Below the pieces are notes generated by a model, which made no database searches, was not told where the DNA came from, and saw nothing but the letters and a program-made list of their open reading frames with translations. From assembly GCA_963678705.1 (NCBI GenBank), contig OY783206.1:24501807-24565806 (forward strand): 64,000 nucleotides of DNA. The letters run 5' to 3'. Of this stretch, positions 2,500-56,355 are shown in pieces; position 1 is the first letter of the stretch, and each line of letters opens with the position of its first letter. The translations under genes were made by a program, and so were the position numbers. This stretch comes from Panorpa germanica (lineage: Eukaryota > Arthropoda > Insecta > Mecoptera > Panorpidae).

Positions 2500-2781
2500 G
2501 GCTATAAACAACAATACTTTGTCTAACCGAGCTATTTTCCTATATTGTTAACTGGGAAGTATATTTTTGTAAAGTTCGCTATAATATAGAGTCTTTCAAC
2601 AAGAGCGGTCATTTTAAATCAACAGAAAAATGCAATATTTCCATGGAAAGTAATGATATTTTAATTTTAATCTAAAGTACAAACTCTGAGGTTAGTAATG
2701 AAACGAAATATCTGCCAAATGTCACCAAAATATTTTGTTTTTCTATTGATTTAAAATGACCTTCATGGTTTTAGAAATTAT
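2500..2781 (-). other. 3' flank of the orphan gene, U1
   Basis: This lies between the TTAA element and exon E8. If the minus-strand gene ends at 2782, it would hold the 3' untranslated region. Two ATTAAA hexamers occur on the minus strand at 2660-2671, about 110 nt past the stop, and are possible polyadenylation signals. I see no other gene. Confidence 0.35.
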
Positions 2782-3021
2782 TTAAATGAACCTCTGCTCC
2801 ATCAACGATTCCAGACGGCGAACTCGGATGTTTCGGGGCGGTTCGCTTCCTTCTACACTTCGCTTTTTAGAACTGATCTGTCCCTAAAACAAAATTACCG
2901 TATTACTAATGGTGTTTTCGCGGCATTATGCTCAGAACTGAATGTTCCATCTTCCAACTACAGGAGTGCCCTCGCACAGGTTGACCACTTTAAAAAGTTC
3001 TCCCGTGATGTGCGGAATTGA
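2771..3021 (+). other. Antisense open frame over exon E8, U1
   Basis: On the plus strand an open frame runs from about 2779 to a TGA at 3019-3021, with residues such as NYLNEPLLHQRF early and HFKKFSRDVRN at the end. In U2-U4 the same frame (24390, 36928, 51207) stops early, after SASHPP, because about 8 bases are lost. It has no ATG in frame in U1, although a possible acceptor (ggttttag) precedes it. I regard it as the shadow of E8 plus GC-richer flank, but an antisense exon is not excluded. Confidence 0.2.
2782..2883 (-). CDS. Orphan modular gene, exon E8 (last coding exon), U1
   Basis: The minus strand shows a strong acceptor (aattttgttttag before GGACAG). A 33-residue basic reading frame follows, starting GQISSKKRSVEGSEPPRN and ending LESLMEQRFI, then TAA. 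It starts in phase 0, as required after E7. The 102 bp are identical in all four units, although sequence immediately outside has indels. The plus strand is also open here (see the antisense frame entry), but that frame is broken by an indel in U2-U4 while E8 is untouched. No homologue is recognised. Confidence 0.6.
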   Translation of the reverse strand, partial: GQISSKKRSVEGSEPPRNIRVRRLESLMEQRFI

Positions 3022-3406
3022 TACCAACTAATATGCATAAAATGTAGAAGTTCTTGATATTGTTAACAATTACTATTAATTACTATTTTCAATACCATCG
3101 CACGAAATGATTTAATACCTCTAATAATTATTATTTAGTTAAATCATAAAAATATTTTTTTAAATAAAATAAAAGTAAAATTAAATTTAAGAAATTTAGT
3201 TAAAAAATATATGAATAAATGTAAACAATTGTATGGATGAGGGTACAGATTTAAAAAGTAATGTATGTTCCAATTACCAACATTTTCATAATGCGATACA
3301 GTGTGGCACTAAGTCGCATTGTGCTCTGTAATTGGAAAACACCCGATATCTAGAATTTCTAAAAAATGGAATTTTTTTTTAAAATGATTCACAAGTCACA
3401 CTAATC

Positions 3407-4070
3407 CAGGGTGGCCACAAAAAAATTATTTCAAATTTCCATGATAATTCCACGTTTTCCAATATAGTTTTTCGTACTTTTCCCTGATTATTTTTTACCT
3501 CATTAGCTTAGTGTGCGGTTATTAACTAATTAAATACGATTCATTACTGGTTAATAAAAAGTAACTTAAATTGAAAAAGACAAAAATAAGCTAATGACTA
3601 GTATAAACTAGAACAAATTAACTCTTAATGTTTAACAGATAAAATTATTGAAGATTTTTAAATTGATCATCAATAACTTGAATTTTAGCTAAAAATTTAA
3701 TTTTTAGTTTTTTTTTTCATTTTCTGATTCATTTCATTTTGAATTTTAAATGAAATATAATATACTATATATGAAATAGTTACCACAATCAAATTTCCTG
3801 ATATTTGTTGAAATTTTCTGAAATTTCCTGACATTTCCATGATATTTCCAACCCCACAAACAATTTTGATCGGAATCCAATTAGAAGCAAATCGTATCAC
3901 TCTGAATGGTGATTGGAATCCTATTAGACATTAGTGAGACATACCCGACTACTGTCTAACTACTCTCTGATACGAGATTGCTAAGATACGACAAATTGTT
4001 TGTAGGGAGGTTGCATTAAATTCCCTGATATTCCCAGATTTCCAAGTTTTCCAGATCTGTAGCCACCTTG
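3407..4070. mobile_element. CAGGGTGGCCAC-type DNA transposon/MITE (U1)
   Basis: The left end is CAGGGTGGCCAC and the right end is the inverse of CAAGGTGGCTAC. The inside is full of ttccctgatatt and atttcctgacattt stretches, typical of a widespread arthropod non-autonomous family. The element lies in the intron between E7 and E8. A possible short target repeat (taatc) flanks it. Compared with U2-U4 it lacks about 140 bp near 3952. Superfamily (hAT-like) is inferred from the termini only. Confidence 0.6.
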
Positions 4071-4113
4071 TAATCCTATCTACGACATTGAACTTTACAA
4101 TTCTTATTATTAC

Positions 4114-4281
4114 CTTCTTCTTCGTCTGGGGCAACTCGTAATCATCATCTGATACATCACTAAAGCTACGCCACCAAGGAACTGGTACTTTCTTAGAACT
4201 ACGGCGGCGACGGTCCACCCTATGCGTACGGACATCAGGCACGGGCACGGGCACGGGCGCGGGGATGGGCAAAGGCATGTC
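4114..4281 (-). CDS. Orphan modular gene, exon E7, U1
   Basis: Acceptor aatattatag at 4282-4283, donor gtaataat at 4112-4113; 168 bp, phase 0 at both ends, 56 residues. The reading starts DMPLPIPAPVPVPVPD, then an arginine cluster (DRRRRSSKK), WWRSF, an acidic patch (DVSDDDYE) and a lysine-rich end. The Val-Pro run is coded by a GGGCAC hexanucleotide repeat on the plus strand; U2-U4 have one fewer, and also lack 12 bp in the acidic patch. Both changes keep frame, which supports coding. The basic and proline-rich composition suggests a nuclear or disordered protein; function unknown. Confidence 0.65.
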
Positions 4282-4580
4282 CTATAATATTTGTAATAAT
4301 AACAAGATATATAAATACAGCAGCATAAAACCAAGTCAAGAGTACTGCATATAAAGTCAGAAGAATTAATCCGTATCATGTGCTAGGTAAGTTTTACTAT
4401 AGATTTAAAACACAGTTAAAAATTTGTAGATAATGTTATAGCCTACAACTTTACTAATAACTCTAAATATTATTTAAATAATAGGAAACAAAGTATCACA
4501 ACAATTTTAAACATCAAGACACGGCATTCTATAACATTTTTGACCTGACTAAAAAAATGTCAAAACATATTATATGTAAT

Positions 4581-5218
4581 GGGCTTGTGTCCTATGTCTT
4601 AATTTCTATAAAAGTGTACTATATATTGATAAAGTAAAGTGGGTTACTAGAACCTCAACTGTTCAATTATTTTTTAATAACTCTTTATATGTTAAGAGAT
4701 ATTAACAATTAAAAAAGTCATTTTGTCTCTTTAATTATTAAAGGGATTCAACGTTGTACACATTCCAAGTGCATGTGACCTCACAATTCTTGTATAAGGT
4801 TACCAACCTTACAGCTCATAAATCTCTGCTATATATATTTATATATCAAAATATCAAATATTATTTACAGCTATTTCAAGGAACAATAAAATTCCAATAT
4901 TATGTCTGCCTTAACAGGGTTAAATAAAATAAAAACTTATTATTCTTTGACTTGACTTGATTATTTGACTACCAACAGCTACAGAACATTACCACAGCTC
5001 TGACCTACTCAACAAATAACTGACGTTAAAATGCATTTCACGTCATACAAATATGGCCGACCATTTCTAGCGCTAAAACTACAATTCAAATTTTTAATTG
5101 CTATATCTCCGTCAACATTTAGATATTTAATAAAATAGACACATCAATACACATTTATTAACATCAATTTCAATCAACAACTGAAAAATCGACCACTAAA
5201 AAATGAGGACACAAGCCC
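4581..5218. mobile_element. 'GGGCTTGTG' family MITE, 638 bp (U1)
   Basis: The termini are GGGCTTGTGTCCTA and the inverse, tgaggacacaagccc, flanked by AT on both sides. It is internally AT-rich with no open frame. It lies in the intron between E6 and E7. The U2-U4 deletion starts inside it, so only its first 190 bp or so survive there (26218, 38757). Related copies occur at 5731-6414 and 22617-23201, and in several other places. Confidence 0.75.
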
Positions 5219-5328
5219 ATTCCGAGATATAGTCCTTTTTTGACTGAGTTATTAACCGACTTCAAATCGTGCATTTATTATTAGGATTTAAAATTAAATT
5301 AAAAAAATATTCGAATATTGACCAATAC

Positions 5329-5451
5329 CTTTCCTGGTAACACAAAATCAGGAGGTAATACGCTAGGCTTCTCCGATTTCTTATTAAGGCTCCTGAAGAA
5401 CTTTGTGCCCTGTTTATCCAATTTCATCAATTCATCGGTAGATACCCATCT
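5329..5451 (-). CDS. Orphan modular gene, exon E6, U1 only
   Basis: Acceptor tttaaatttcag, donor gtattggt; 123 bp, phase 0 at both ends, 41 residues beginning RWVSTDELMKLDKQG and ending LPPDFVLPGK. It is basic and shows no cysteine or membrane pattern. The exon sits between two copies of the same MITE family in opposite orientation (4581-5218 and 5731-6414). U2-U4 lack it. No family is recognised. Confidence 0.55.
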
Positions 5452-5730
5452 CTGAAATTTAAATTTAAAAATAAAAAAAAAATCTTTACCACTAAATACC
5501 TGTCTAATAAGTATTATGTAGCTTGAATGTAAAACTTTACTTATAGAAACAAACGATGTAATGTAACACGAACATAACCTGTTAAACATTATTACGTGTA
5601 TTTAAGGTTATAATTTCACAAGTTTTAACTCCTACTACTTTTGTTTTGTAGTATTTATAGTGCCAATACTTTGACAGATGGTCACAGAGTTTGTAGGTTA
5701 TAATCTAAAAATAGAAATGGTAACGAGTTT

Positions 5731-6414
5731 GGGCTTGTACTCATTTTTTAGGGATCGATTTTTCAATTGCTGATTGATCTTGATGTTAATAATTGTATAT
5801 TGACGTTTCTATTTTATTAAATATCTAAATGTTGACGGAGATGTAGCAATTAAAAATTTGAATTGTACTTTTAACGGTACTGATGTCATATTTATGACGT
5901 ATCCACGTAGTGAAAAGGGTCAGTTATATGTTGATTCGGTCAGTGCTGTAGTAATGTTTTGTAGCTGTTGGTAGTCCTGTGTATCTACTACGCATGCGTT
6001 CGTTAACAAAGAATAATAGGTTTTTATTTTATTTAACCCTATTACGGCAAAAATATATTGAAATTTTTATCTATAAATAATATTTTGATATATAAATGCA
6101 TATAGCAGAGATTTATGAGCTGTAAGGTTGGTAACCTGTAAACTTGTTAGAGTACTGTCATGAATATGCTATCTTTTTATGCTCTGTTGTATAAAAGAGA
6201 TAGGAACATAGCGGACGTGTGGTCACATGTCTTGGAGTGTTCTGAAACGTTGAATCCTTTTAATAATTAAAGAGACAAAATAACTGTTTTAATTTTTAAT
6301 ATCTCATATAATATTCCGACTTATTAATCAATAATTGGACATTTGAGGTCCCTTTAGTCAACTTTGTCAATATGCAGTTTTATATAAATTTAAGAAGTTA
6401 TGGTTCACAAAGCC
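5731..6414. mobile_element. 'GGGCTTGTG' family MITE, diverged, inverse orientation (U1)
   Basis: The left end is gggcttgtactcatttttta and the right end atggttcacaaagcc. The inside matches the inverse of 4581-5218 over most of its length, for example ctgtaaggttggtaacc and the gttgaatccttttaataatt stretch, but with many changes. It is older than the U2-U4 insertion of the same family. Confidence 0.6.
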
Positions 6415-6524
6415 ATTGTTACATATGCGATTAAAATTAGAAACAAAGTTAATACAGTAACTGTGAAATTAGGGTTAAGCCCACGGAATTTTAATAAAAA
6501 ATTAAATGTATAATGTTTATTTAC

Positions 6525-6674
6525 CTTCATACTATCATGAATATCTAAGCAAGCAATCTTAGACGATTTTCTTTTTTCAGAGCTACCACTCATTCGGTTA
6601 CCATCTCGTGCGTTCCCTTGGCCTTGTCTTGACGTAGACGGTAGCGCATCTTCTACGCCGTTGTCGGACGATGT
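6525..6674 (-). CDS. Orphan modular gene, exon E5, U1 only
   Basis: Acceptor tgtaatattatttcag, donor gtaaataa; 150 bp, phase 0 at both ends, 50 residues. The reading starts TSSDNGVEDALPSTSRQGQG and continues through MSGSSEKRKSSK to CLDIHDSMK. It is serine- and charge-rich. The acceptor context and the LPSTS motif are shared with E4 (and PSTST in E3), and the intron upstream (about 6720-6905) is homologous to the intron at 12256-12450. This exon is therefore one of a family made by duplication of exon plus intron. Confidence 0.6.
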
Positions 6675-9600
6675 CTGAAATAATATTACATGTAAAATTG
6701 AAACTAGAAATGGAATCAGTGAATGTCACAGTAGGTTATGAAATATGAAGAGAAATGAATAAATAGTTTGTCGATTAGATTTCTAATCAAATCTTATGGT
6801 GCCACCCGTGTTTTGTATTTATTGATTACAAATAATAATCAGTTTTTGTGTTGTTATTAAAGTAGTACTATATTTAATGAAATGTAACCATTTTCTTTGT
6901 CAGAAAAGGTTATGGTAATTATTCGCTATAGTCACACCATTTGCTTTGAATCTTGAAAGAAACCTGCTGCATTTTTGTACGTTTTGTGACGCTTGTTGTG
7001 TAATCAAAACATGTCCAAATCACTATGTAATAGTTGTTACACCATTTCTTAATTAGAAATAGACAATATTAATGGTTAAAGTTGACATTTTAAATTTGAG
7101 GTTAGAAATAATATGACATTGTTTCATGTATAAAAGGCGTCATATTTCACATTTATTAAGTCAACTTTTCATTAAAAATGATAAAATGAATATAATGTAG
7201 TGATTTGTACATGTTTTAACTATGTTAAAAGCGCCATAGAGCATACAAAACTCCAGTAATTTTCTTATTAGTTTCAAAACAAAAGGTGTTCCAGTATCGA
7301 ATAATTATCAAAGTTATTATATTTCAAGTTTTTATAAATTCTTTCCAAATACATTGCCAAATTGTTCGATTAAGCAAAAACTGAAATGGAAGTGCATAAC
7401 CTCACTTTGTAACTGTTCAACTGGCGTTTGTTAACTTCTGACTATTTTTCAAAGGCCTATATATTCTAAATTAGACTTCTTATGATCACTCTAAGCTATT
7501 CGATTTATTTTACTCTTTAGTTAAGGTTGGTTAGTAGTTATGGTAAACTTACATAGCTTAATTAGCATACAGTATAGCCTACATAGACAATATAGGCTTT
7601 TGAAAACACGTCAAAAGAAATTACGAGTCCTAGCCTGTCCATCTGCAAATAATATCAACACCAGAGTCTACTTTAAAATAGAAGAAATTCCATTCAACTT
7701 GTCCGCTTTTAATTTTAGGTTAGTGTCATCCCTCCAACATACTTACACGTAAGGTTTATTTAACAAGAATATTTTAACTTTCACATAATTTTTTTTAGGT
7801 TAATATAATATAAGATTAGATAACAAAAGTACTGTTGATACAAATTTATGTTTTTTCGATTAATAATGTTTTTATACAAGATTATTAATTTAATATATTT
7901 GTAGAAGATTGTTAAAATCTTTTGCATTTATTTAATGATAATATAACTGAATAACGTTAAACATCGTTAAATAAGAATACGTAACGTTATGTAAAAAATA
8001 TTACAGAGGTGAAACGACTTTTTAATAGTTCCTGTTCAGGAATTTGTAAATTTAACTATTTCCAAATATCCAAATATTTTAATATTTTGCAAGAAGATGT
8101 AAGACTATAGTTAGAAGTTTTATAATAATTAATTCTTCTTCATCAAAAAGGAGGATTACATCAGTGGGAGCATCACATTTTGTGAGTTTCTGCACCAAAC
8201 ATTGCCGAAACAGAAGATTAAGTCGACTGCAATTATTTTGAACATCTTCCTGTGATACAGCAAATGTCCACAACCGAAAGTGCCAAATAAATGAAAGAAA
8301 TGCTACTACAATTAGCGAAGATATTCCAGTGAGAATTAAGCAAGAAGTTTAGTATTGGATTTAAAACACATGTGAAATTGGTGAAACTTAAAAAAGTAAG
8401 TAAAAAAAATATTTGCAGTGTTTGTTCAAAAAGTATTTTTATTTTTGACTGTTGATATAAAGCCTCATTCCCATTTACGGTTTTGATATTTAATTTACGT
8501 TTTTATTTAATATTTTAATCTAGAATTCATGTTTTCACAATAGATATTCCTTGTCACATTCGTATTTAAATTTGAGTTTAATTACTAAATTTGGTGCGCA
8601 TGCGTCGTTAGTAATATAAATTTTGACAGTTCGACAAAATTGAATATGGAATAATTAAAATTGCTGTTTTTAATAACAATTAGTAATAGAAATTGTTTTT
8701 TAGTAACAATTAGTAATAGTAGAACTGATATTGAACTTTTTTTTTAAATAAATCGTACTGCATTTTGCCAGCTTGTCACATTTTGGAGGTTATAATAGTT
8801 TTTATTAATTTACGAAATATTAGAACTTATAAGATTCAAAAACAACAAAGAAAACTTAAATTAATTCTAAATTAAAAATAGTCCAAGGAATGACTACGCA
8901 TAATCCCATATGCTATACAATTTAAATTAAGGATGTATGAGCGAGAAAATAATTTTCGATTTAAGAACTCAAATTTTTTTTACGTGTAGATTTCTGCTCA
9001 AAGAATTTACTGTTAAAATTTCAGGATAGGAAACCGTTCATATTTTGAAGAAACTAATTGTTGAAAATTGATATAAAATACATTGCTCTTATGTGATTAA
9101 AAATCAATAACAACGAGTAGGTTCTATATTGTGTCGTATTAAAAAAACTATTCATTAGAAAGGTGAATATTGGCGTGGCAGGTCAATATTTAAAAAATAC
9201 TATGTGAAAATGAAATTCAAATTATGATATTTTATAAATTATTTTTTACAATTGGCAACGTCACACTACTATAACAAGCGCCACAACACAGCGGGAAAAA
9301 CGGTATATCAAGATTTAAAAATAACCTCATTCAGAGCTGTCAAAATAAATATTACATGATAGTAACAGCAAAAATTAAATACAAAAATTAAGAAAATAGC
9401 ACACATGGTATATAGAATTAAAATATTTATAAACACTTAAATAATTTAATAACATAACATAAAAATTATAATAGTTGTGATTAAAATTTATGTAGATACA
9501 TAAAAAAATTTTTTTTTTGCAATTCTTCAAATAATGCAATTCTTGCATTATTGACTTTATAATCATTTGTTTTTTATTTTACTATGTAAATTCTTATCTA

Positions 9601-9758
9601 TTTTTAGTGGTCGTTCTTTACAAAACAATCCTTGCTTATTACGTTTTTGAGGTATATCCATCTTTACCAACAACCAAGACCAATACCAGCCGGACCTCAA
9701 ATAATTGGCGAGCAGCCCGAATAATCGAATACGCATATGTTGTCACATAACTTTTTAC
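6675..9758 (-). other. Intron between E4 and E5 with duplicated intron blocks
   Basis: I see no reliable gene. Two segments have copies inside the same gene. One is 6720-6905, homologous to 12256-12450 (shared aaaatgaataaat, ccgtgttttg and aataatcagtttttgtgtt). The other is 8040-8560, homologous to 9975-10350. The frame at 8079-8273 lies in the second duplicate and is judged incidental, although it resembles the 9984-10169 frame (shared RQCLVQK). The rest is AT-rich with no recognisable element. Confidence 0.5.
8040..8560. repeat. Intragenic duplication, copy 1
   Basis: This is homologous to 9975-10350: both hold cggcaatgtttggtgcagaa on the minus strand, flanked by similar text, and a ttttcacaata...ttccttg stretch at the right end. 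Together with the shared exon borders it suggests that an exon-intron module was duplicated in tandem to give E4 and E5. Confidence 0.65.
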
Positions 9759-9920
9759 CTGAGTAGATTGTCTTCCTCTAGACAATCCTTCAGCGGTGCT
9801 TACATTCTTTCGAATGCCTTTAGATGTAGATGGTAGCGACTTTTTTGGTTTATCAATGTCTGGCATTGAATATTGGATCAAATTGTCATACAAAGGTTCG
9901 CCTTGCTGGCAGGTCCAATC
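9759..9920 (-). CDS. Orphan modular gene, exon E4, U1 only
   Basis: Acceptor cttgtaatattatttcag, donor gtaaaaag; 162 bp, phase 0 at both ends, 54 residues. The reading starts DWTCQQGEPLYDNLIQYSMP, then KKSLPSTSKGIRKN, and ends SRGRQSTQ. Acceptor context and the LPSTS segment resemble E5. It is basic, with one cysteine. No family is recognised. Confidence 0.6.
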
Positions 9921-9974
9921 CTGAAATAATATTACAAGAAAAATTAAAGAAAAAGAAGACATTTCACTTATTTT

Positions 9975-10320
9975 ATCACAAAGTTAAACATTAAGAAGAT
10001 TATTAATAATTAATTTTTTTTCAACAGGAAGATGTACGTTATTGGGCCCCTCCCAATTTGTGAATTTCTGCACCAAACATTGCCGAACCAGAAGATTAAA
10101 TCGTCCGCAATTATTTTGGATATTTTGTGAAATTATATAAAGTGAATCAAATACAGGAAACGTCCACAAGCGGAAGCGTTCAACAAATTAAGCAAATGCT
10201 CCTACAATAGAGAAGATGAGGCTTCAAAAACTGATGAAGCTGATGAAAGTGAGTAAAAACTTAAAATTACAGTAAATATATAAAAAAAAGAAATTGTTTT
10301 TCACAATAATATCCTTGACC
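9975..10320. repeat. Intragenic duplication, copy 2
   Basis: The second copy of the 8040-8560 block, in the same orientation. It carries a minus-strand frame (9984-10169) similar to the one at 8079-8273 but with a different C-terminal half; without splice-site support in phase 0 I do not call it an exon. It is cut on the right by the insertion at about 10318. Confidence 0.6.
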
Positions 10321-11272
10321 GCGTTCACACTTGCGTGTTTGGGTTCAAACATTTCGTTTTTGTGTACGAACACGCATTAGTGGACGAAGTTCGTACTTAT
10401 GTGGCAATCATTTGAATTCCATACACGACGACATATGAGGTGCGACCAGTGGCCTAGAGGGGACTTAGAGTAAACTCTTTGACATGAAATAAACCGCTTT
10501 TGGCGACCTCTAGGAATATTATAGTTTCTATGAACTAAAATTCTCGGCAACTCAACTTAAGAAGGGAATGAAGGGTAAAGGGATTTCACTTATGTACATC
10601 CAAGTGTATTTCCTTGCTCCTCAGGCTCATCGAATAGCCTAACATGATCTCAGTAAAAGTCGCATGGTTTTAGAGACATCGTTACTTTAAAGTGTTTTTT
10701 TTTTAATTACCTATTTTTTAACATTGTTAGTGCTAGTTTTAGAGAATATATATATATGGAGAGATAGTGCTGGACCTGAAAGTGTGTCCAAAATGTGTGC
10801 GAGAGAAGTCGAAAGTGACCTTTCTCTTTCGCACACATTTTGTACACACTTTTAATCTATAGATTAGTTATTAGATTACTAAGCTCCCTGCAAAATTTAA
10901 ACCGTTTATTTTATTTTGTTTTGTGAGAAAATTAACATTTGCCATGTGTGCTATAAACCTTTTTGTCCGATTCAAATATATGGTATTTATACCATATTAT
11001 TATTATTATTTATGTTTTTTTAATTTTTTTTTGTACACATTGTAAACTATTTATTTAAATAGAAGACATAATACACTTGCAAATATTAAATCCAACAAGT
11101 GTATAGACCACTAGTATTGCTCATTTTCGAACTTTTCGCTGTAACTTATCGCTAACTTCAGCGACGTACTCAGTAGGCTATCTCTCTCTTTGCCTCGTCG
11201 CTTCCTCTTACACGCTTCCTCTATTCTTATATCTCTATGCAAATAATCGAACACGCAAGTGTAAACTCGGCT
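10318..11272. mobile_element. DNA element of about 950 bp with long TIRs (U1 only)
   Basis: The left end cgcgttcacacttgcgtgtt and the right end cgaacacgcaagtgtaaactc are inverted copies (about 20 of 23 bases). Inside are a second near-perfect palindrome at 10779-10852 (agtgtgtccaaaatgtgtgc against gcacacattttgtacacact), a short (TA)n run and no transposase. The segment 10485-10555 (accgctttt...gaactaaaatt...ctcggc) is also found at 18776-18840. The element ends 31 bp from exon E3. Confidence 0.55.
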
Positions 11273-11302
11273 TCTCTATTTGATATTGTTTTTGTATTTA
11301 AC

Positions 11303-11416
11303 CTCAAAAGCGTTCCTGTTATTGCTGTGACAAGTTGATGTAGATGGTTGATGGTGATGCTCGTGTTGATGTTGTTCTCTCGCTGTGTTAAGATTACGAA
11401 CGTTTGAAACCACATT
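11303..11416 (-). CDS. Orphan modular gene, exon E3, U1 only
   Basis: Acceptor catgtaatatattttcag, like those of E4 and E5. The donor gttaaat is weaker than the others. 114 bp, phase 0 at both ends, 38 residues: starts NVVSNVRNLNTARE, then a histidine/glutamine run (QHQHEHHHQPSTST) and ends NNRNAFE. The PSTS motif links it to E4 and E5. It is the least certain exon because of the donor. Confidence 0.45.
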
Positions 11417-12719
11417 CTGAAAATATATTACATGAGACATTAATCACTTTTTGTCCGCTAAATACATAAATAAATATACCTACAAAAACATAACCTTAAA
11501 ATATTTTTTTTTTTTGTAAATAAAGCAAAAACTTTAATTAACAAGTAAAAATGAATGATCTAGATTTAAATGTAACGGTGGTTGCAATTGATAGAAACGG
11601 TTAAAGTTAAAAGTGGGCGGTAGGGTTTCAACTTTTTTTTTCATTTTCTTTTTATTTATTTATATTATTATTGTATAAAAATTTGAAGTCGATTGGCCTA
11701 AAACTGTGACTTCTCTGGTCTGCTTTCGTGTTACTTTGAAACTTTTAAATGCGGTTTCTCACACTTAACTTTTTTAGAGTTGGTGTCCTCTCTAGCTCAA
11801 AATCTACTGAACCGATTCTTTTGAAATTTTGCACACTCTTTCTTTGCATAAATGCCGAGGTAACGCTGTCGAGTTTATTTTAATTTTTTAATTTTAGCGT
11901 ATTTTAAAATAACAAAGTTTCTGATTTTCATGAAGAATCGGTATTTTGACTTCTAAGTGCTGTAAAATACTGAAAAATCAATAAAAAAAGAAAAACTCGA
12001 CAGGACCTTCCCCCCTTACCTAAAATGCTATCAGGGGTATTATTTTTCAATAAATGAGTTTGATTTATGATTCAAGCATGCGCATAGAGAACAAATAGAA
12101 ACATATACCTTTCTCTCTCGCACACATTTTGGACGCACTTTTAATCTAAAGGAAACATAGGCTATTCACGCTCCAAAATGGCTACAAATTGCACGGTTCG
12201 ACGATTGAGTGCAGGAAACTGATGTTCAGTGGAAATATCTAGTGGAGGGGAGCGCAATAAGTGACTGTCACAGTAGCTTATGAAATATGAGGAAAAATGA
12301 ATAAATGTTAATTTGTTGATTAACCGTACAATCAAGTCAACATTTGGTCACACTTGTTATTGAGTCCGTGTTTTGCATTAGTTATTAATCATATTAATAA
12401 TTAATTCATAAGAAAAAATAATCAGTTTTTGTGTTATTTTCTTTGTCAAACGAAAAGGTTAAATGTCAAGTTTTTATAAAACTATTTCAAGTATGTTGTT
12501 ACAAAAATAAGGTAAGACTCATATAGATGTTAACCTACAATGGCGTTTTCTATGTAAGAAAAAATGTTGCCTTTACTTTAAATTCATTCTCTAAATTTTT
12601 GGCTAAGTGTACTCACTTTGGTATTCTACTAGTAGCGAGTAAAATGAAACCTACATTGTTTTAATGCCTTACATATGAAAACACCATAATGTTAGATAGA
12701 TTTCTCTTGTGTGTCTTAC
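11417..12719 (-). other. Intron between E2 and E3
   Basis: From about 11620 this matches U2 (26430), U3 (38970) and, from about 12115, U4 (52850). The block 12256-12450 is a duplicate of 6720-6905. Single copies of the palindrome arm seen at 10779-10852 occur at about 12110-12142 (cgcacacattttggacgc). No gene is seen. Confidence 0.5.
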
Positions 12720-12911
12720 CTGCATTGGAGATGCTTCTCTTGTCAATCGCCCCACGGTGTTTGTGTTGTTTCTAACATATTCGTTCGTATATGGTTCAGG
12801 ATATAGGAACGAATCCATATCTGATAATACCACTGGTGCCAATAATCCAGCAGCATACCTCTCCATGAGGCTGGCCATTCTATCACTAGTGGTATTCTCT
12901 TCCTTAATCTC
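12720..12911 (-). CDS. Orphan modular gene, exon E2, U1
   Basis: Acceptor ttgtgttactattctag, donor gtaagac (near consensus); 192 bp, phase 0 at both ends, 64 residues. The reading starts EIKEENTTSDRMASLMERYA, then APVVLSDMDSFLYPEPYTNE, and ends GRLTREASPMQ. In U2-U4 one codon (Asn) is added before PEPY, in frame. Frames on the opposite strand and in the other minus frame here are shadows. No domain is recognised. Confidence 0.65.
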
Positions 12912-13086
12912 CTAGAATAGTAACACAAATATATTAGAAACAATTCGTAAAAATCATTTATGAGCGAGAGATATTTGAGTCTACCAAATGAAATAAGGAT
13001 TTGTAGACAAAACTAGTGAAACAAGATGAAATTCAATACATGAGTATCTGTTAATTATTGGTTATTTTTCATTTCAAGAAAGGTCC
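12912..13086. other. Short intronic stretch
   Basis: An AT-rich stretch between E2 and a plus-strand open frame. It is conserved between units and nothing else is seen in it. Confidence 0.4.
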
Positions 13087-13293
13087 ATGAGTTACGAACT
13101 TTCTGGGCCTATGTCCTCAACATTTCTAAACGATGGCTCAAGATTGCTCAACTACTTATGCTCTGATACCATTGGCAGAAGATATGATGATAACGAAAAG
13201 ATAGATGTCAGAGCGTATCTAAAGAAAATAGTTGTAGAAAAAGACCAGTCGAAATTAGCAAAGATAAAAGCGGGAAGACAAGAAGATAGGTAA
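13087..13293 (+). other. Conserved plus-strand open frame of unknown status, U1
   Basis: A 68-residue charged frame, starting MSYELSGPMSS and continuing with SDTIGRRYDDNEKIDVR and VVEKDQSKLAK. It is open in all four units. Substitutions between U1 and U2 are mostly amino-acid changing (E/K, A/V, I/M, K/R), so selection is not evident. It ends at TAA in agataggtaa, which also resembles a donor. Downstream (from about 13301) the frame of GAGAGATGGGTGGCAACG would read RWVAT, similar to RWVST in E6, but the gap is only about 16 nt, too short for an intron. It may be a decayed antisense exon or a chance frame. Confidence 0.25.
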
Positions 13294-13389
13294 ATTAATA
13301 TCCAGGAGAGATGGGTGGCAACGCCACTGAAAAAAGAACGTTACAGGAAGATATTTGTTCAGTTTAAGGTAAGAGTTTTACTGGGGTTT

Positions 13390-13925
13390 GCATATCATTC
13401 CTATCCTTTCCAGAGGAAAAATCTCACTTTTTCTCATGATTTTATCGGCTAACTTACATCTCATCTTTTGGAGATAACAAAATCTGGAAACTTATCACAC
13501 CATTTGCTAAAATGTCACAATTACCCGAGCAGATTCACTACAGAGCTACACTTTCTGGCAGATTCCACACAATATCGAAGAGGTTTTCTTCATATACCGT
13601 TCAAAGAGTAGCTTTACACTAAAGATCCAGGTCATATCCAATCCATAAATTGTTCACACTCTAAGTGGTCTGCTAAATGTCCCAGTAAACAATTTGGTAA
13701 TCCAGTGGAAATCATGTTTAATGAAATCTATGAACTTTTACCGTGAAAGAGTTTGCTCATAGTCGTTCCGTATTAAATGTCTCTCTTATGGGCAACAAAT
13801 AGCGATGAGTGAGTATAGATCAATTATAGTACAACATTCCTTGTGTTCCATTTCCAATTTTCCTTATTCATCATTGACTTTAACTTTCTTGATTACTGCA
13901 GCTTCTTCATCCAAGCAAGTGACAA
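13390..13925 (-). pseudogene. Decayed DDE (mariner-like) transposase remnant, U1
   Basis: In U2-U4 the same place reads on the minus strand KKVKFNDEAHFKLNKHDNKE, matching the SDEAHF-x-L-x-G-x-x-NKQN block found in many insect DDE transposases. In U1 a deletion of about 30 bp removed the EAHF part. Further weak matches (DLDL for the PDLTPLDF block) lie at lower coordinates. Stops and frameshifts are numerous. Confidence 0.4.
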
Positions 13926-13965
13926 ATTTGAGATATTATTAGTAGCTTATCTAAACTTATAAGTG

Positions 13966-13971
13966 TTTATT
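13966..13971 (-). terminator. AATAAA polyadenylation signal after the alternative last exon, U1
   Basis: AATAAA on the minus strand, 37 nt past the stop codon at 14008. It is also present in the other units. Confidence 0.4.
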
Positions 13972-14007
13972 TAAAGTAATTACTACATGTTCTTAACTGT
14001 AATTAGT

Positions 14008-14139
14008 CTAATCGGAATGTTCTATTCGTTCTTCTGAATTGTCTTCAGCTATCTGAGAATGTGGTTCATGATGTGCTGCCTCAACTAGAATTCCGTCACT
14101 GATGCTGTTCATTACTTCAAATAGATCTGTAGCATATTC
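14008..14139 (-). CDS. Candidate alternative terminal exon (E-alt), U1
   Basis: Acceptor gaactctttcag, then a 43-residue acidic frame starting EYATDLFEVMNSISDG and ending DNSEERIEHSD before TAG, with AATAAA 37 nt on. It opens in phase 0, so it could splice directly to E1 to give a protein of about 60 residues, or it may belong to another transcript. Acidic here contrasts with the basic E7-E8 end, so the two ends would make very different products. The frame is open in all units with no indels. Confidence 0.45.
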   Translation of the reverse strand, partial: EYATDLFEVMNSISDGILVEAAHHEPHSQIAEDNSEERIEHSD

Positions 14140-15509
14140 CTGAAAGAGTTCATACTTTTTATGGTTCTTTTAGATATTCCAATTTTATTAGGTCTCTCGA
14201 TCTTGTGTTCTTCCTTAGAGCTCCCGTGTTTAATACATCTGCAAGTCCTCGTGGCTTATACCAAATAAATCTCAATCAGTCTCGTCTTCATAAGGCTATT
14301 TACCGATACCAGGCATGCCACCTGTCCTGTAGACTAAAACCATTCATTTTTCTTTACTAGTTCTATACCAAATGGAAATTTGATTAATTGTAGATCTTGC
14401 AATTGAGGTCAAATAAAGGTAGGTATCTCCACCACATTGCCTAAGAAGTATAAATCAATATGAATACGCACCAAAAACTGCCTCTTTGTAAATAAATTGT
14501 TCTTCTTCAAATATTTTATATCATATCCAAAAATTTTCCGTTTAAAATGTGTCCACAGTCGCTAAAGATGCTCTCTTTAAAAAATCTATCTTCTTCTTCC
14601 TTTTTGACAAAACTTTGGAGCTCTTATAAGTAGGTTTACATTCTTTGAAGTAATAGATCTGAAACTAGAAGTCCAACACCTTGCACTCAAGGTGACATAA
14701 AGATAGAGCCTAGCAAGATACACCTCAGTAATACCACCTGAACAAAGTACCAACCATATCTTATTTAGATTGTCTTCATTCCTAATCAGCGTTTTGCTAA
14801 TCAACATACCTTTTCAGATCAAACTGTGCCGCGTGGAGCAGTTCAACGGTTATGTTGTTGGTTCATTTTTACAATCTATCATTTCATACAAAACCAAATG
14901 ATGAAGCTAAACATCTACTATTCCCGCTATAATGGTGAGTCATTGTACAATTACTATTCCTAGCCATAAGGCTATGTCATGTTTTAATTTGTACGTTGGT
15001 TAAAAATGATCCATATTTAGTAATATTGTGCCCATGATTTTACTGATACGATATGGCAATAACTACATTATCAACGACCTATTTTTGTATGGTTGACAAA
15101 TAGATCATGATATTACAGATATTGAAGACACCCCGGCAAGCAGAGTGTTCCTGTAGGTGCCACACAAAACTCTTAAAATGTGAAGCTCCGATTTTAAACG
15201 TCACAGTAATATAATATAATATTTTCTAAAATACTAATATATAAATCATTTAAAAAATAGAAAACAATTTTAACTTTTAAAAAGTAAAACATTTAAATAA
15301 GATAATAATTTGACATTGACATTTGTGTTTATAGGAAATGGATGGCATGAAATTAGGAACAAATAAACCAAAAAAGATGTAAAATCCAAAAAGTTTGATT
15401 TCTTAAACTATAAAATTAACAATTTGCATTTTTAAAATTTAAAAATAAAAGAACATGAAAAATAAAAAAAAAATTACTTCTAAAATATTATGAATTTTTT
15501 TATACTTAC
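14140..15509. other. Intron region between E1 and E-alt with decayed coding-like pieces
   Basis: Minus-strand frames at 14586-14807 and about 14150-14260 look coding-like but are broken in the other units. On the plus strand, 29723-29877 in U2 (acceptor ccttttcag, residues CLVEQFNCYVVGSF..., donor gtgagtc in phase 0) could join a short piece after tgtgtttatag near 15335 (EMDGMKLGTNKPKKM then stop). In U1 that exon has two deletions, of about 17 and 19 nt. These may be remains of another mobile element; no call is made. Confidence 0.3.
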
Positions 15510-15560
15510 CATTTTAATATCGGAAACGTATATATTTTCCGTAATGTCGATATCTTCCAT
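15510..15560 (-). CDS. Orphan modular gene, exon E1 (start codon exon), U1
   Basis: ATG at 15560-15558, 17 residues MEDIDITENIYVSDIKM, then a near-consensus donor gtaagtat. 51 bp, so the exon ends in phase 0 and can join E2 or E-alt directly. This start was chosen because it is conserved in all units (MEEID... in U3/U4). In U2 the 17-residue reading survives eight base changes, five codons being synonymous. No signal peptide is visible, so an intracellular protein is likely. The whole U1 model (E1-E8) is about 353 residues, basic towards the C-terminus, without a recognised domain. Confidence 0.65.
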
Positions 15561-16887
15561 TCTAAGTTGATGTAATCCTTGCTATAAGAATTTGCAGCTG
15601 TTTTACTCCTGTAAACATAAATGTAAAACAGTTTAAATCGATTTTGCGAGCAGTTCGGCTGCTAAGTTGAGAACAAATTCTGTTTAGTGCCTTGAAATCT
15701 TTAATGATATGAATATACTTCCTTGCAAAAATACTTTTTTGGCGTACAACTCAAAAACGGTAAAAGAACTTAAAAAATTTCCATCTTTCTTTTTGTATAT
15801 TTTTTTATGTATTTATCATAAAATTTCATTGATTTAAATTCTCTGAATTATAGATGTAAGAAATTAAGTTGATTAACAACCATAGTAATATAAATATAAA
15901 AACAAATTAACTTAATCAATTATATTTAAGAAGCGTATGATGAAATTATCGGGACAGTTTCTTAAGGGTTACTTCCACATACTGAATTTTAGTTTAATTT
16001 CTTAATGTTTTAACCTTAAATTTTCCTTTGACAAGAATCGAATCGTTTAAGATTCGCAGTAGATTTAGAAAAATTGTTTGTAGTGAAGTACCAGCTCGTG
16101 AAATTTAATTAAATAATAATAATAATGTTATATGCATAATGCATGCTCACTAACATATTAAAATTAAAAATGAAACAGTATGTAGAAATAATGTTTAAGT
16201 AATAATTGGGGCTTGTGAACCATGCCTTGTGTCTACAAAACTGGTGTCCAATTTTTTTTTAATAAGTCGCAATATTGTTCAACAGGATTCGGATAAGCGG
16301 GGGTATTATTATATAATAATAAACGTTTAAAATTATATTATGCAATAATCAAAGAAGATATCATGTGTAAATGGATTTTGAAACGTATGTAGCAAACAAT
16401 TGACAAGCAAACAGAAATATTTTAAATAATTAGAACAATGGTAAATATAAATTTACGAATATTTTATACGAATTTTACTAATACTACGCGAGATGTATTA
16501 AGGGCGATACGTTTGCTGATTTTGTATAAAATTATGGTAAGCCCTTATTTGTGGCGGTAATTTGCTTCTAAAAATATTTTAATTCGAGTAGCCCCTAAAA
16601 CGTTAGCAGATTCCTGTTTTATTAACAATTATGATAGTAATATTAATTACTACGTTTAATTCACGAATAATGTTGGGGATATAACGGCCAAAAAATGAAC
16701 TGAAAATCGGAAATCAATTTTTCATATTAAAAAAACCGTCCATTGTTTTTAATATTAAAATCTTTAAATAATATTCAATATAAAAAGAAATAATTCATAA
16801 TCCAATATTAGAAATTAATATTAAAAATATTATTTAATTCAAGAATTAAAATAAAATTAAAAATATATAATTAAATTTAAGAAATAC
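15561..16887. other. 5' flank of E1 (U1)
   Basis: AT-rich with no open frame. It holds a hairpin-like pair around 15866-15921 (aagttgattaac and ttaacttaatcaatt) and a 'ggggcttgtgaacca' MITE end at 16208. U2 has lost most of it, while U3/U4 carry about 200 extra bases beside E1 (43044-43240, 56404-56600). Confidence 0.4.
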
Positions 16888-18985: not shown

Positions 18986-19274
18986 ATGAGTGCGATATGT
19001 ATGGTTAAAAATTGTGAAAGTAAAACTCAAAATCAACGTTTCCATAAATTCCCAGAACAAAGAATCTTTGCTTTAAAATGGTGTGAAGCAATAGGAAGAC
19101 AAGATTTAAAATTAATTAGAATGACTAAATTGATGGAAAAAACTATATGCTCTAATCATTTTACTAAAGGTGATTATACTTGTCGTGATGGTGAAGTGGT
19201 TTTATTAGCAACTGCTGTGCCACACATAATAGCAAACGCAAGAGTCACTGAACAAATGGATACAAAAAACAATG
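18986..19274 (+). CDS. THAP-domain exon 1, U1
   Basis: The reading starts MSAICMVKNCESK. It has a full C2CH THAP zinc finger: Cys5, Cys10, Cys55 and His58 (CSNHF), with the conserved Pro23 (HKFP), Trp32 and the AVP motif at residues 77-79. THAP domains bind DNA and form the N-terminus of P-element transposases and THAP proteins. The exon ends at a donor (aatg then gtataa, 19275), phase 1. The downstream exon found in U4 is lost here: the intron is cut at 19606 by the unit junction. Unspliced, the frame stops at 19321 after 111 residues. Only two base differences from U2 were seen in the exon. Confidence 0.8.
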
Positions 19275-19321
19275 GTATAAACATTTTAAATAATATTATA
19301 TTTTTACATTTAGTCAGATAG

Positions 19322-24416: not shown

Positions 24417-24518
24417 TTAAATGAACCTCTGCTCCATCAACGATTCCAGACGGCGAACTCGGATGTTTCGGGGCGGTTCGCTTCCTTCTACACTTCGCTT
24501 TTTAGAACTGATCTGTCC
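24417..24518 (-). CDS. Orphan modular gene, exon E8, U2
   Basis: Identical in sequence to E8 of U1 (33 residues ending LMEQRFI), same acceptor. Here E7 (25779-25928) is spliced in from an intron shortened and rearranged by MITE changes. Confidence 0.6.
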   Translation of the reverse strand, partial: GQISSKKRSVEGSEPPRNIRVRRLESLMEQRFI

Positions 24519-25778: not shown

Positions 25779-25928
25779 CTTCTTCTTCGTCTGGGGCAAG
25801 TCGTAATCATCACTAAAGCTACGCCACCAAGGAACTCGTACTTTCTTAGAACTACGGCGGCGGCGGTCCACCATATGCGTACGGACATCAGGCACGGGCA
25901 CGGGCGCGGGGATGGGCAAAGGCATGTC
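25779..25928 (-). CDS. Orphan modular gene, exon E7, U2
   Basis: 150 bp, 50 residues, phase 0 at both ends. Compared with U1 it lacks one Val-Pro pair and four residues of the acidic patch (now FSDDYDLPQ), and has Met for Arg in THMVD. With E3-E6 deleted it directly follows E2. Confidence 0.6.
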
Positions 25929-27541: not shown

Positions 27542-27736
27542 CTGCATTGGAGATGCTTCTCTTGTCAATCGCCCCACGGTGTTTGTGTTGTTTCTAACAT
27601 ATTCGTTCGTATATGGTTCAGGATTATATAGGAACGGATCCATATCTGATAATACCACTGGTGCCGATAATCCAGCGGCATACCTCTCCATGAGGCTGGC
27701 CATTCTATCACTAGTGGTATTCTCTTCCTTAATCTC
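27542..27736 (-). CDS. Orphan modular gene, exon E2, U2
   Basis: 195 bp, 65 residues, phase 0 at both ends. Differences from U1: LSAP for LLAP, DPFLYNPEP for DSFLYPEP. Acceptor and donor unchanged. Confidence 0.6.
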
Positions 27737-27911: not shown

Positions 27912-28118
27912 ATGAGTTACAAACTTTCTGGGCCTATGTCCTCAACATTTCTGAACGATGGCTCAAGATTGCTCAACTACTTATGCTCTGATACCATTGG
28001 CAGAAGATATGATGATAACGAAAAGATAGATGTCAGAGTGTATCTAAAGAAAATAGTTGTAGAAAAAGACCAGTCGAAATTAGCAAAGATGAGGGCGGGA
28101 AGACAAGAAGATAGGTAA
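27912..28118 (+). other. Conserved plus-strand open frame, U2
   Basis: Counterpart of 13087-13293 (starts MSYKLSGPMSS). Status unknown. Confidence 0.2.
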
Positions 28119-30443: not shown

Positions 30444-30494
30444 CATTTTAATATCGGCGACGTAAACGTTCTCTGTGATGTCGATATCTTCCAT
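30444..30494 (-). CDS. Orphan modular gene, exon E1, U2 (diverged version)
   Basis: 17 residues MEDIDITENVYVADIKM. Eight base changes from U1 lie within about 24 bp; five codons change synonymously (6, 7, 8, 9, 12) and two conservatively (Ile10Val, Ser13Ala). The intron side is identical to U1 over tens of bases. The pattern suggests a coding exon and a conversion tract from an unseen paralogue. Confidence 0.65.
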
Positions 30495-33181: not shown

Positions 33182-33470
33182 ATGAGTGCGATATGTATGG
33201 TTAAAAATTGTGAAACTAAAACTCAAAATCAACGTTTCCATAAATTCCCAGAACAAAGAATCTTTGCTTTAAAATGGTGTGAAGCAATAGGAAGACAAGA
33301 TTTAAAATTAATTAGAATGACTAAATTAATGGAAAAAACTATATGCTCTAATCATTTTACTAAAGGTGATTATACTTGTCGTGATGGTGAAGTGGTTTTA
33401 TTAGCAACTGCTGTGCCACACATAATAGCAAACGCAAGAGTCACTGAACAAATGGATACAAAAAACAATG
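33182..33470 (+). CDS. THAP-domain exon 1, U2
   Basis: Same as U1 except Ser12 is Thr (CETKTQ). All zinc ligands are kept. Donor intact at 33471, but the second exon is missing: the unit junction follows at 33771. Confidence 0.75.
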
Positions 33471-35154
33471 GTATAAACATTTTAAATAATATTATATTTT
33501 TACATTTATTCAGATAGTAGAATCTTTTATACTAGATCTTTTTTATAGTAGAATAAGAAAAGACGCTTCAAATTCTATCAATTTATTATATTTTATGTTT
33601 AACTTTTGTTATAAGTTCCACATTTATATACATAACCTAAAAATCGTTTCGTTATTCATCATTAATAAAAGTTCCATACTCTTTCAAAGATCTATTATAC
33701 TTCTAAAGTAAATATATTACGATTTTGAAAACTGCCGTTGCTTATTGTTTCCAATCAGATACATTTGATTGACAGTGATAACTTGTTGATATAAAATTGG
33801 TGTTGAGGCACTGTTAATCACACATAATACAAATAAATATTAGAAGCACAATGGAATCTCGAAATAAACATGATGCAGATTAAGTCTTAAATTTGTTGAT
33901 GTAAAAAGACTAAAAGCAAAACCTTATTAATTGTTGTTTGATACGAAAAGACGCCATGACGCCATTAAAAAAAACACAAACTTATGTCAAAGATATTATC
34001 GGATGTCTCTACTGATCTCTACCAAATAATATTCTCTCTCTTTCTGTCATACCCTGAACTATAACAAAATTTGAACTGTAAATAATAAAGCGCTAAGTTA
34101 AGTTCGGTGAATTCCTCTTCCCCGCTACACAACACGTACTAGGGTACCAGTTGGACGGCCGTGCTATTATGTTGTGTGTTGAAATAACCAAAACATAAAA
34201 TGAACCATCTACTAAACAGTAGATATAACAGATATAGTTAGTAATCTATTTCATAGATGGCCGTATTCATTTATAAATTACAACGCCTGATCATACGCAA
34301 CCACATACACATTTATTTGTGTATATATGGGTGCATCCTTATCAGGTGTTTAAAATAAGATATTTTTGCACAATATAAAATGGAAAAAGAACTCTTGTTA
34401 AAATTAATAAATATGTTAAATTTTGCGAAAATAAGATTTTCTAAATTTCATGGACATATTTTTCTAAAAGAAGAATTACGTTTCTTCTAAATGTTTGATG
34501 CATTAATGTACGTTGTTATGCTCGAAAATATTTAAAATGTTATGAACAGATCTCCATTTTAGAGCATTACGAACTTAACTGTATCAAAAAATTTAAAAGA
34601 GATGTAAATTTTCTATTAGAAAATTATCCATGAATTTAAGAACTTAGTTAAACTATTTAAAATAATTTTTAAAAATTTATGCTTCTGTTAGCGACATCTA
34701 TTGAAGAGTAGCTTATAATATATATGGTCTATATGTTCAATACATGACGACCCGATTTATTTGCGCCAAGACTGTATGCAACCTAAGTAACACTGTTTGA
34801 ATATTCACATGTAAAGACAATATCAGCAACGGCCTTGAAGAAAATGTTTGCCAAAACAGAGAAGCTTCCCTAATATAAGTAGACATATCTTTCAACGACA
34901 AAGAAAAGTTATGCAAAATGACACAAATATTTGTGCTTTTCTGACTTTAAAGCTAATATTATGTGTGTATAGAATCAATTTTAAACGCTGATTATTCGAA
35001 AACAGTGGCAGATAATTCAAATTGGTTTTCAATTTTCAAATCAGCAATAAAAACTGCATTATTGAACATATATTATTTGCCACAAAAATAAAGTTTTAAA
35101 AGCAAAAAGTATTAATGAAAACTACTAGCGAATTGAATAAAAATAGTAGGGAAT

Positions 35155-36954: not shown

Positions 36955-37056
36955 TTAAATGAACCTCTGCTCCATCAACGATTCCAGACGGCGAACTCGG
37001 ATGTTTCGGGGCGGTTCGCTTCCTTCTACACTTCGCTTTTTAGAACTGATCTGTCC
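36955..37056 (-). CDS. Orphan modular gene, exon E8, U3
   Basis: Identical to E8 of U1 and U2. Confidence 0.6.
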   Translation of the reverse strand, partial: GQISSKKRSVEGSEPPRNIRVRRLESLMEQRFI

Positions 37057-38317: not shown

Positions 38318-38467
38318 CTTCTTCTTCGTCTGGGGCAAGTCGTAATCATCACTAAAGCTACGCCACCAAGGAACTCGTACTTTCTTAGAACTACGGCGGC
38401 GGCGGTCCACCATATGCGTACGGACATCAGGCACGGGCACGGGCGCGGGGATGGGCAAAGGCATGTC
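38318..38467 (-). CDS. Orphan modular gene, exon E7, U3
   Basis: 50 residues, same reading as U2, phase 0 at both ends. Confidence 0.6.
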
Positions 38468-40082: not shown

Positions 40083-40277
40083 CTGCATTGGAGATGCTTC
40101 TCTTGTCAATCGCCCCACGGTGTTTGTGTTGTTTCTAACATATTCGTTCGTATATGGTTCAGGATTATATAGGAACGGATCCATATCTGATAATACCACT
40201 GGTGCCGATAATCCAGCGGCATACCTCTCCATGAGGCTGGCCATTCTATCACTAGTGGTATTCTCTTCCTTAATCTC
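40083..40277 (-). CDS. Orphan modular gene, exon E2, U3
   Basis: 65 residues, same reading as U2; donor context gtaagacatac. Confidence 0.6.
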
Positions 40278-40452: not shown

Positions 40453-40659
40453 ATGAGTTACAAACTTTCTGGGCCTATGTCCTCAACATTTCTGAACGAT
40501 GGCTCAAGATTGATCAACTACTTATGCTCTGATACCATTGGCAGAAGATATGATGATAACGAAAAGATAGATGTCAGAGTGTATCTAAAGAAAATAGTTG
40601 TAGAAAAAGACCAGTCGAAATTAGCAAAGATGAGGGCGGGAAGACAAGAAGATAGGTAA
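40453..40659 (+). other. Conserved plus-strand open frame, U3
   Basis: Counterpart of 27912-28118, one substitution (LINY for LLNY). Status unknown. Confidence 0.2.
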
Positions 40660-42943: not shown

Positions 42944-42994
42944 CATTTTAATATCGGAAACGTATATATTTTCCGTAATGTCGATTTCTTCCAT
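42944..42994 (-). CDS. Orphan modular gene, exon E1, U3
   Basis: Reads MEEIDITENIYVSDIKM; close to U1 (Asp3Glu), unlike U2. Donor gtaagttt. The ATG has A at -3 (taaaATG). Confidence 0.65.
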
Positions 42995-47386: not shown

Positions 47387-47675
47387 ATGAGTGCGATATG
47401 TATGGTTAAAAATTGTGAAAGTAAAACTCAAAATCAACGTTTCCATAAATTCCCAGAACAAAGAATCTTTGCTTTAAAATGGTGTGAAGCAATAGGAAGA
47501 CAAGATTTAAAATTAATTAGAATGACTAAATTAATGGAAAAAACTATATGCTCTAATCATTTTACTAAAGGTGATTATACTTGTCGTGATGGTGAAGTGG
47601 TTTTATTAGCAACTGCTGTGCCACACATAATAGCAAACGCAAGAGTCACTGAACAAATGGATACAAAAAACAATG
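47387..47675 (+). CDS. THAP-domain exon 1, U3
   Basis: Same protein as U1 over the THAP domain. Second exon missing (junction at 47976). Confidence 0.75.
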
Positions 47676-51233: not shown

Positions 51234-51335
51234 TTAAATGAACCTCTGCTCCATCAACGATTCCAGACGGCGAACTCGGATGTTTCGGGGCGGTTCGCTT
51301 CCTTCTACACTTCGCTTTTTAGAACTGATCTGTCC
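51234..51335 (-). CDS. Orphan modular gene, exon E8, U4
   Basis: Identical to the other units. Confidence 0.6.
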   Translation of the reverse strand, partial: GQISSKKRSVEGSEPPRNIRVRRLESLMEQRFI

Positions 51336-52596: not shown

Positions 52597-52746
52597 CTTC
52601 TTCTTCGTCTGGGGCAAGTCGTAATCATCACTAAAGCTACGCCACCAAGGAACTCGTACTTTCTTAGAACTACGGCGGCGGCGGTCCACCATATGCGTAC
52701 GGACATCAGGCACGGGCACGGGCGCGGGGATGGGCAAAGGCATGTC
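52597..52746 (-). CDS. Orphan modular gene, exon E7, U4
   Basis: 50 residues, same as U2 and U3. Confidence 0.6.
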
Positions 52747-53424: not shown

Positions 53425-53619
53425 CTGCATTGGAGATGCTTCTCTTGTCAATCGCCCCACGGTGTTTGTGTTGTTTCTAACATATTCGTTCGTATATGGT
53501 TCAGGATTATATAGGAACGGATCCATATCTGATAATACCACTGGTGCCGATAATCCAGCGGCATACCTCTTCATGAGGCTGGCCATTCTATCACTAGTGG
53601 TATTCTCTTCCTTAATCTC
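53425..53619 (-). CDS. Orphan modular gene, exon E2, U4
   Basis: 65 residues; one change from U2/U3 (LMKRYAAG for LMERYAAG). Confidence 0.6.
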
Positions 53620-53794: not shown

Positions 53795-54001
53795 ATGAGT
53801 TACAAACTTTCTGGGCCTATGTCCTCAACATTTCTGAACGATGGCTCAAGATTGCTCAACTACTTATGCTCTGATACCATTGGCAGAAGATATGATGATA
53901 ACGAAAAGATAGATGTCAGAGTGTATCTAAAGAAAATAGTTGTAGAAAAAGACCAGTCGAAATTAGCAAAGATGAGGGCGGGAAGACAAGAAGATAGGTA
54001 A
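53795..54001 (+). other. Conserved plus-strand open frame, U4
   Basis: Identical in reading to U2. Status unknown. Confidence 0.2.
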
Positions 54002-56304: not shown

Positions 56305-56355
56305 CATTTTAATATCGGAAACGTATATATTTTCCGTAATGTCGATTTCTTCCAT
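56305..56355 (-). CDS. Orphan modular gene, exon E1, U4
   Basis: Reads MEEIDITENIYVSDIKM as in U3; donor gtaagttt. Confidence 0.65.

Follow-up and report, generated by a model that had tools for sequence, protein, structure and literature searches.

The micro-exon genes of Schistosoma are composed of symmetric exons, mainly very short (< ~36 bp), whose loss keeps the reading frame. Bicycle proteins, in turn, are secreted and carry an N-terminal signal sequence. The aphid genes that encode them have internal exons that are nearly all in phase 2 and about 17 exons on average, and many of them are highly expressed in salivary glands (PMC9168663). Here, we analysed a stretch of 64,000 nucleotides of the Panorpa germanica genome (the window; G000:C3:24501807-24565806, in a genome of 464 Mb and 249 contigs), which holds a tandem array whose first unit contains a minus-strand gene of eight exons (e1 to e8). 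Splicing and expression of this gene are predicted from its sequence, and the locus very probably represents a genuine insect protein gene, not placed before, in which all exons end between codons. We consider it likely that this is a spliced coding gene without known relative, present in four units through tandem amplification, with an ancestral long form in unit 1, short forms in units 2 to 4 and a nuclear, disordered, adaptor-type protein as its product.

Results

The exons of unit 1 measured 51, 192, 114, 162, 150, 123, 168 and 102 bp from e1 to e8, and they were separated by seven introns with GT/AG borders; the joined product read 353 amino acids (aa) followed by TAA (Table 1). The same eight minus-strand exons, with these borders and about 353 residues, had been proposed in an earlier interpretation made from the letters alone (the sequence-only reading), and our model matched it to the base. 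All seven exon joins were in phase 0, as had been proposed too. Phase 0 accounts for about one half of introns, so that seven out of seven would be found in about 1 of 130 seven-intron genes; the pattern is unusual, not extraordinary. According to two reports, phase 0 is the commonest intron phase of proteins without signal peptides (PMC1626468) and genes with many similar-sized exons in one phase are called rare (PMC9168663, citing others).

Coding potential was scored with codon log-odds trained on 2816 codons from seven open reading frames (ORFs) around the window (one bromodomain, one MADF/BESS, three zinc-finger-like by eye and two without a firm match) and contrasted with local non-coding DNA. 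Under this model, each of e1 to e8 was open in its assigned frame. Equal-length open non-coding segments matched the scores of e2 to e8 in 0 to 24 per 30000 draws, and that of the 17-codon e1 in 465 of 30000. The GC content of e2 to e8 ranged from 0.41 to 0.57, and that of e1 was 0.29 versus a background of 0.28. An alternative frame scored higher in e3 and e8, but it contained stops.

When the minus strand of 2700-16500 was scanned for internal exons, with every phase allowed and generic splice matrices, the top ranks went to e2 (22.1 bits), e5 (19.1), e7 (18.2), e4 (17.2) and e6 (10.2), all of them 0/0, followed by 8160-8249 (candidate exon 4b, 7.5 bits) and e3 (7.2 bits). The claim that the exons are individually weak did not hold for all of them, since five of the six internal exons were the five top candidates of this simple scan; e3 was weak when taken by itself. 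Across 200 Markov sequences of the same length, the fourth-ranked score reached at most 8.4 bits and the fifth-ranked at most 7.2, versus 10.2 here. Within the block 4767-11601, the five best candidates were e5, e4, e6, 8160-8249 and e3, all 0/0, and the sixth scored -0.7. When 500 second-order null sequences of this block were scanned, four candidates of at least 7.2 bits appeared in 2, three of at least 10.2 bits also in 2, and three such candidates all in 0/0 in none. In each of units 2, 3 and 4, the minus-strand scan placed e2, e7 and an exon holding e1 in the first three ranks, the latter with an acceptor nearer than the favoured one. Four non-coding control stretches, scanned on both strands, yielded best candidates of 1.6 to 9.2 bits. 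The view that open segments of AT-rich DNA were strung together by chance could draw on the 9.2 bits reached in one of these eight control strands, on the weakness of e3 and 4b taken singly and on the small codon training set. As the leading minus-strand candidates coincided with the model exons in a common phase and the nulls fell short of them, we give this explanation almost no probability. The exon chain is real as a pattern.

Self-comparison of the window revealed a tandem array of four units. In every unit, e1, e2, e7 and e8 were open and had intact splice sites, e8 being identical throughout; e3 to e6 were confined to unit 1, and the joined frame of units 2 to 4 spanned 165 aa. A repeat element was cut off at the deletion junction of units 2 and 3 and continued in unit 1 and in 5/5 other aligned copies; therefore, the long form is the older one and the deletion is derived. 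The frame was kept because the exit phase of e2 equals the entry phase of e7, and nothing more was needed. Unit 4 presented a larger deletion within the same intron, reaching ~0.93 kb beyond that of unit 3, and its junction retained no trace of the deletion point of units 2 and 3. Since units 2 and 3 share 97 to 98% identity with unit 4, the deletion of the latter is probably an enlargement of theirs. The array is a record of block deletion, not of repeated gain and skipping. Of the sequence-only proposal that modules were being gained, lost and skipped, the in-frame loss of internal exons stood, and gain, single-module loss and skipping gave way to the deletion of a four-exon block, larger in one unit. 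An assembly error may be present within the array.

Divergence between copies was compared in units 1 and 3, as the flanks of units 2 and 4 were partly unalignable (0.56 and 0.57 identity). There were 8 differences over 495 exon sites against 116 over 3172 sites of flanking non-coding DNA (Fisher p=0.016). Exon length differences (3, 6 and 12 nt) were multiples of three in 3/3 cases, and so were 6 of the 22 gaps that appeared on aligning the non-coding flanking DNA of units 1 and 3, some of them alignment-edge gaps. In the e1 of unit 2, 6 of the changes from unit 1 were synonymous and 2 non-synonymous, on ~9 and ~42 sites, respectively (p ~1e-4, with rounded site counts and a post hoc choice of exon). 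These eight changes are crowded into 30444-30494 beside an intron that is 98% identical, as if the exon had been copied from a more distant paralog; a genome search for the donor returned the four units and no other.

Several observations weigh against a selected coding gene. The 6-nt difference in e7 falls within a hexamer repeat, and slippage there would keep the frame by itself. Over the four shared exons, the ratio of non-synonymous to synonymous substitution rates (dN/dS) was ~1 between unit 1 and units 3 (2 synonymous, 6 non-synonymous changes) and 4 (2 and 7), and the ratio of ~0.25 between units 1 and 2 (8 and 7) was lowered by e1 alone. The single-copy exons e3 to e6 offer no between-copy comparison. 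At least one candidate of 7.2 bits or more occurred in 119 of the 200 null sequences, so that e3 by itself lies within chance and rests on its context. Finally, the plus strand of 2700-16500 also bore strong candidates, 10157-10248 (20.5 bits) and 13179-13289 (14.2 bits); therefore, a high score does not single out the gene. Altogether, the evidence for purifying selection is mixed, and selection is unproven for the recent copies, which are too alike for a strong test.

Each unit also carried a plus-strand THAP exon (18986-19321, 33182-33517, 47387-47722 and 60774-61109; PF05485 for the unit-1 copy), three of the four being identical over 104 aa and the fourth 99% identical. Because a likely second THAP coding exon (61474-61597) follows the last unit only, units 1 to 3 probably bear THAP copies truncated at their 3′ end, while the gene studied here is complete in each unit. 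This apparent loss of a 3′ exon, the dN/dS of ~1 between unit 1 and units 3 and 4 and the unlike upstream sequences of the units would suit a gene that was once real and whose array copies are now pseudogenes, open because of recent duplication. However, all four copies kept the frame over at least 165 codons together with all splice sites, their exon length differences were in frame throughout and the changes in the e1 of unit 2 were mainly synonymous, which makes decay of the copies rather unlikely.

Regarding the 5′ end, all four units were alike from a TTACAG acceptor-like site located 45 to 48 nt before the ATG (TTTACAG, 48 nt, in unit 1). Just upstream of it, units 1, 2 and 3/4 differed, and farther out unit 1 re-aligned with the others. 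In-frame stops lay 24, 42 and 42 nt before the ATG of units 1, 3 and 4, inside the exon bearing e1; in unit 2 the nearest one was 84 nt before the ATG, on the far side of the acceptor, and no further ATG intervened. A non-coding first exon upstream of e1 is likely because e1 combines an acceptor-like 5′ border with in-frame stops before its ATG. Poly(A)-type hexamers were present ~110 and ~387 nt past the stop codon in all four units. The acceptor-like border could alternatively mean that the exons form the 3′ end of a larger gene or are what is left of a transposable element or virus, as could the frame of unit 2, which has no stop between that border and the ATG, and the repeats and reverse-transcriptase fragment nearby. 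Against this, the stops of units 1, 3 and 4 lie inside the exon, the exons were found in only four units of the 464 Mb genome, unlike a dispersed element, and viral contigs gave no relative, so we hold this origin to be highly improbable. A dispersed transposable element in particular was discarded, the four units lying at one locus and not at many unlinked sites (counts being lower bounds).

No Pfam family matched the 353-aa protein at E up to 1, and the PDB yielded no relative (best E 0.74), in line with the earlier claim that it fits no known family. Searches of the genome for diverged paralogs with the whole protein and, as separate protein queries, with e8 (32 aa), e2 and e6 returned the four units only, and unit 1 only for e6; these counts are lower bounds. 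As a DNA query, e7 gave 4 matches, which were the four units. Two stretches of viral contigs fitted a pattern, neither of them a relative. A literature search named no such gene, a result of little weight, since the gene lacks a name under which it could be found. The left neighbour, a 335-aa ORF at window coordinates -6226 to -5222 (minus strand), contains IRVRKIETLL, resembling IRVRRLESLM of e8 (E=0.027 in a two-sequence comparison), and this possible link is a lead. The ORF was single-copy in this genome and matched no Pfam family at E up to 0.1.

Candidate exon 4b is a plausible ninth phase-0 exon and, if used, would extend the long form to 383 aa. Segments 8113-8322 and 9994-10217 within the gene are duplicates with 72% identity, the latter containing a decayed counterpart of 4b; 9990-10260 as a DNA query found itself and this duplicate, with no other site in the genome. 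Over 81 aligned bases, 4b and its duplicate differed at 5, 2 and 6 first, second and third codon positions, respectively, and therefore gave no clear coding signal. The same intron end, TGTAATATTATTTCAG, precedes both e4 and e5, and PSTS occurs once in each of e3, e4 and e5, which is only suggestive of an origin of e3 to e5 by exon duplication. Beside the duplicated segment, plus-strand 10157-10248 had a strong coding score (KRPQAEAFNKLSKCSYNREDEASKTDEADE).

The long form had an isoelectric point of 9.2 and a mean hydropathy of 0.392, below the charge-hydropathy boundary of 0.42; the short form was close to its boundary (0.408 versus 0.418). Both e1 and e2 had a net charge of -4, and e6, e7 and e8 one of +4 apiece; basic clusters occurred in e5, e7 and e8. 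The N-terminus was acidic (MEDIDITENIYV) and showed no hydrophobic stretch, the most hydrophobic 19-mer starting at residue 29 (mean 1.14). Two adjacent SUMO-type motifs span the e1/e2 joint (IKMEIKEE), a third lies in e6, and RxxSLME is present in e2 and again in e8. A model of e2 from the lone sequence contained helices at residues 8-20 and 33-36 (mean predicted local distance difference test 60.2, predicted template modelling score 0.27). These properties suggest a basic, mostly disordered protein of nuclear type, with a putative nuclear site and function, which looks ordinary and restricted to its lineage.

Table 1. Positions of the exons of the four units and of the deleted block within the window
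Feature	Positions	Strand	Remarks
Unit 1 e1, coding part, ATG start	15510..15560	-	reads MEDIDITENIYVSDIKM; exon start probably 15608, after TTTACAG
Unit 1 e2	12720..12911	-	64 aa; single-sequence model helix at residues 8-20, short second helix at 33-36, low confidence
Unit 1 e3	11303..11416	-	38 aa; weak donor (gttaaa); unit 1 only
Unit 1 e4	9759..9920	-	54 aa; unit 1 only
Candidate extra exon 4b	8160..8249	-	phase 0/0, EDVQNNCSRLNLLFRQCLVQKLTKCDAPTD; weak donor; outside the sequence-only model
Unit 1 e5	6525..6674	-	50 aa; unit 1 only
Unit 1 e6	5329..5451	-	41 aa; unit 1 only
Unit 1 e7	4114..4281	-	56 aa; Pro-Val run and basic cluster
Unit 1 e8, last exon	2782..2883	-	33 aa and TAA
Deleted block holding e3-e6	4767..11601		missing from units 2 and 3; unit 4 deletion larger
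Unit 2 e8	24417..24518	-	identical to unit 1
Unit 2 e7	25779..25928	-	shorter than unit 1 by 6 and 12 nt, in frame
Unit 2 e2	27542..27736	-	longer than unit 1 by 3 nt, in frame
Unit 2 e1	30444..30494	-	8 differences from unit 1, 6 synonymous
Unit 3 e8	36955..37056	-	
Unit 3 e7	38318..38467	-	
Unit 3 e2	40083..40277	-	
Unit 3 e1	42944..42994	-	
Unit 4 e8	51234..51335	-	
Unit 4 e7	52597..52746	-	
Unit 4 e2	53425..53619	-	
Unit 4 e1	56305..56355	-	

On its right, the array was bordered by zinc-finger-like ORFs, a MADF/BESS ORF and, at ~74.5-76.3 kb in window coordinates, a bromodomain ORF; the left side held the 335-aa ORF, a zinc-finger-like ORF and a weak zf-AD match (E 0.01, below the cut-off). 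A reverse-transcriptase fragment in two frames (63130-64334, plus strand; PF00078 for its first piece) lay just right of the array. The e1-e2 intron of all units held a plus-strand coding-like segment (RYDDNEKIDVRAYLKKIVVEKDQSKLAKIKAGRQED) or its close copies, at 13179-13289, 28004-28114, 40545-40655 and 53887-53997. Separately, 19 among the 20 cox1 matches listed lay off the mitochondrial contig (on C1, C3, C5, C16, C21 and others) and are nuclear mitochondrial DNA copies. The mitochondrial contig itself looked like that of an insect in its proteins and their order, and these proteins perhaps resembled those of Polyneoptera or Hemiptera.

Discussion

The locus may be explained as follows. Unit 1 would be the retained ancestral long form, and units 2 to 4 would derive from a copy that lost e3 to e6 through a deletion between intron sites, leaving e2 joined to e7 in frame in a protein of 165 aa. 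The protein would open with an acidic region bearing SUMO-type motifs, continue with the short helix of e2 and the PSTS motifs of e3 to e5 and end in a basic tail. It would most likely act as a protein-protein or chromatin adaptor whose essential binding is made by its ends. The short copies, which keep both ends without the middle, could change the dosage or compete with the long form. One may go further and imagine single exons as freely optional in the transcript and the copies as fixed long and short partners, the short one competing through both terminal motifs, for instance where copy number is driven by a genetic conflict; we find this extension improbable.

Recently amplified genes without known relatives are easy to miss. 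As this locus shows, a single genome without RNA is enough for codon and splice signals to reveal one. The locus provides a directional case, from an ancestral long gene to a short form by a frame-keeping deletion from intron to intron. If expressed, it would allow a direct test of the role of the lost middle exons.

Insect regulatory proteins with THAP, zf-AD and MADF/BESS domains have similar acidic IK-E linkers with the SUMO-type IKxE motif. THAP and MADF/BESS genes surround the locus, but the protein itself has no DNA-binding domain or other Pfam match at E up to 1, and membership in any of the three groups was discarded for lack of the named domain. Like the bicycle genes of aphids, as PMC9168663 describes them, this is an insect gene with many exons in one phase that is elusive to sequence similarity. 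Unlike them, it uses phase 0, has eight or nine exons of ordinary size and starts with an acidic N-terminus without a hydrophobic stretch. It was not assigned to the bicycle genes: all of its joins are in phase 0, not phase 2, and hydropathy, in place of a dedicated predictor, gave an acidic N-terminus and no bicycle-type signal sequence. The gene shares symmetric exons and frame-preserving loss with the micro-exon genes of Schistosoma. Its exons, however, span 51-192 bp, a size that sets it apart from that class, and here the change is a genomic deletion rather than skipping.

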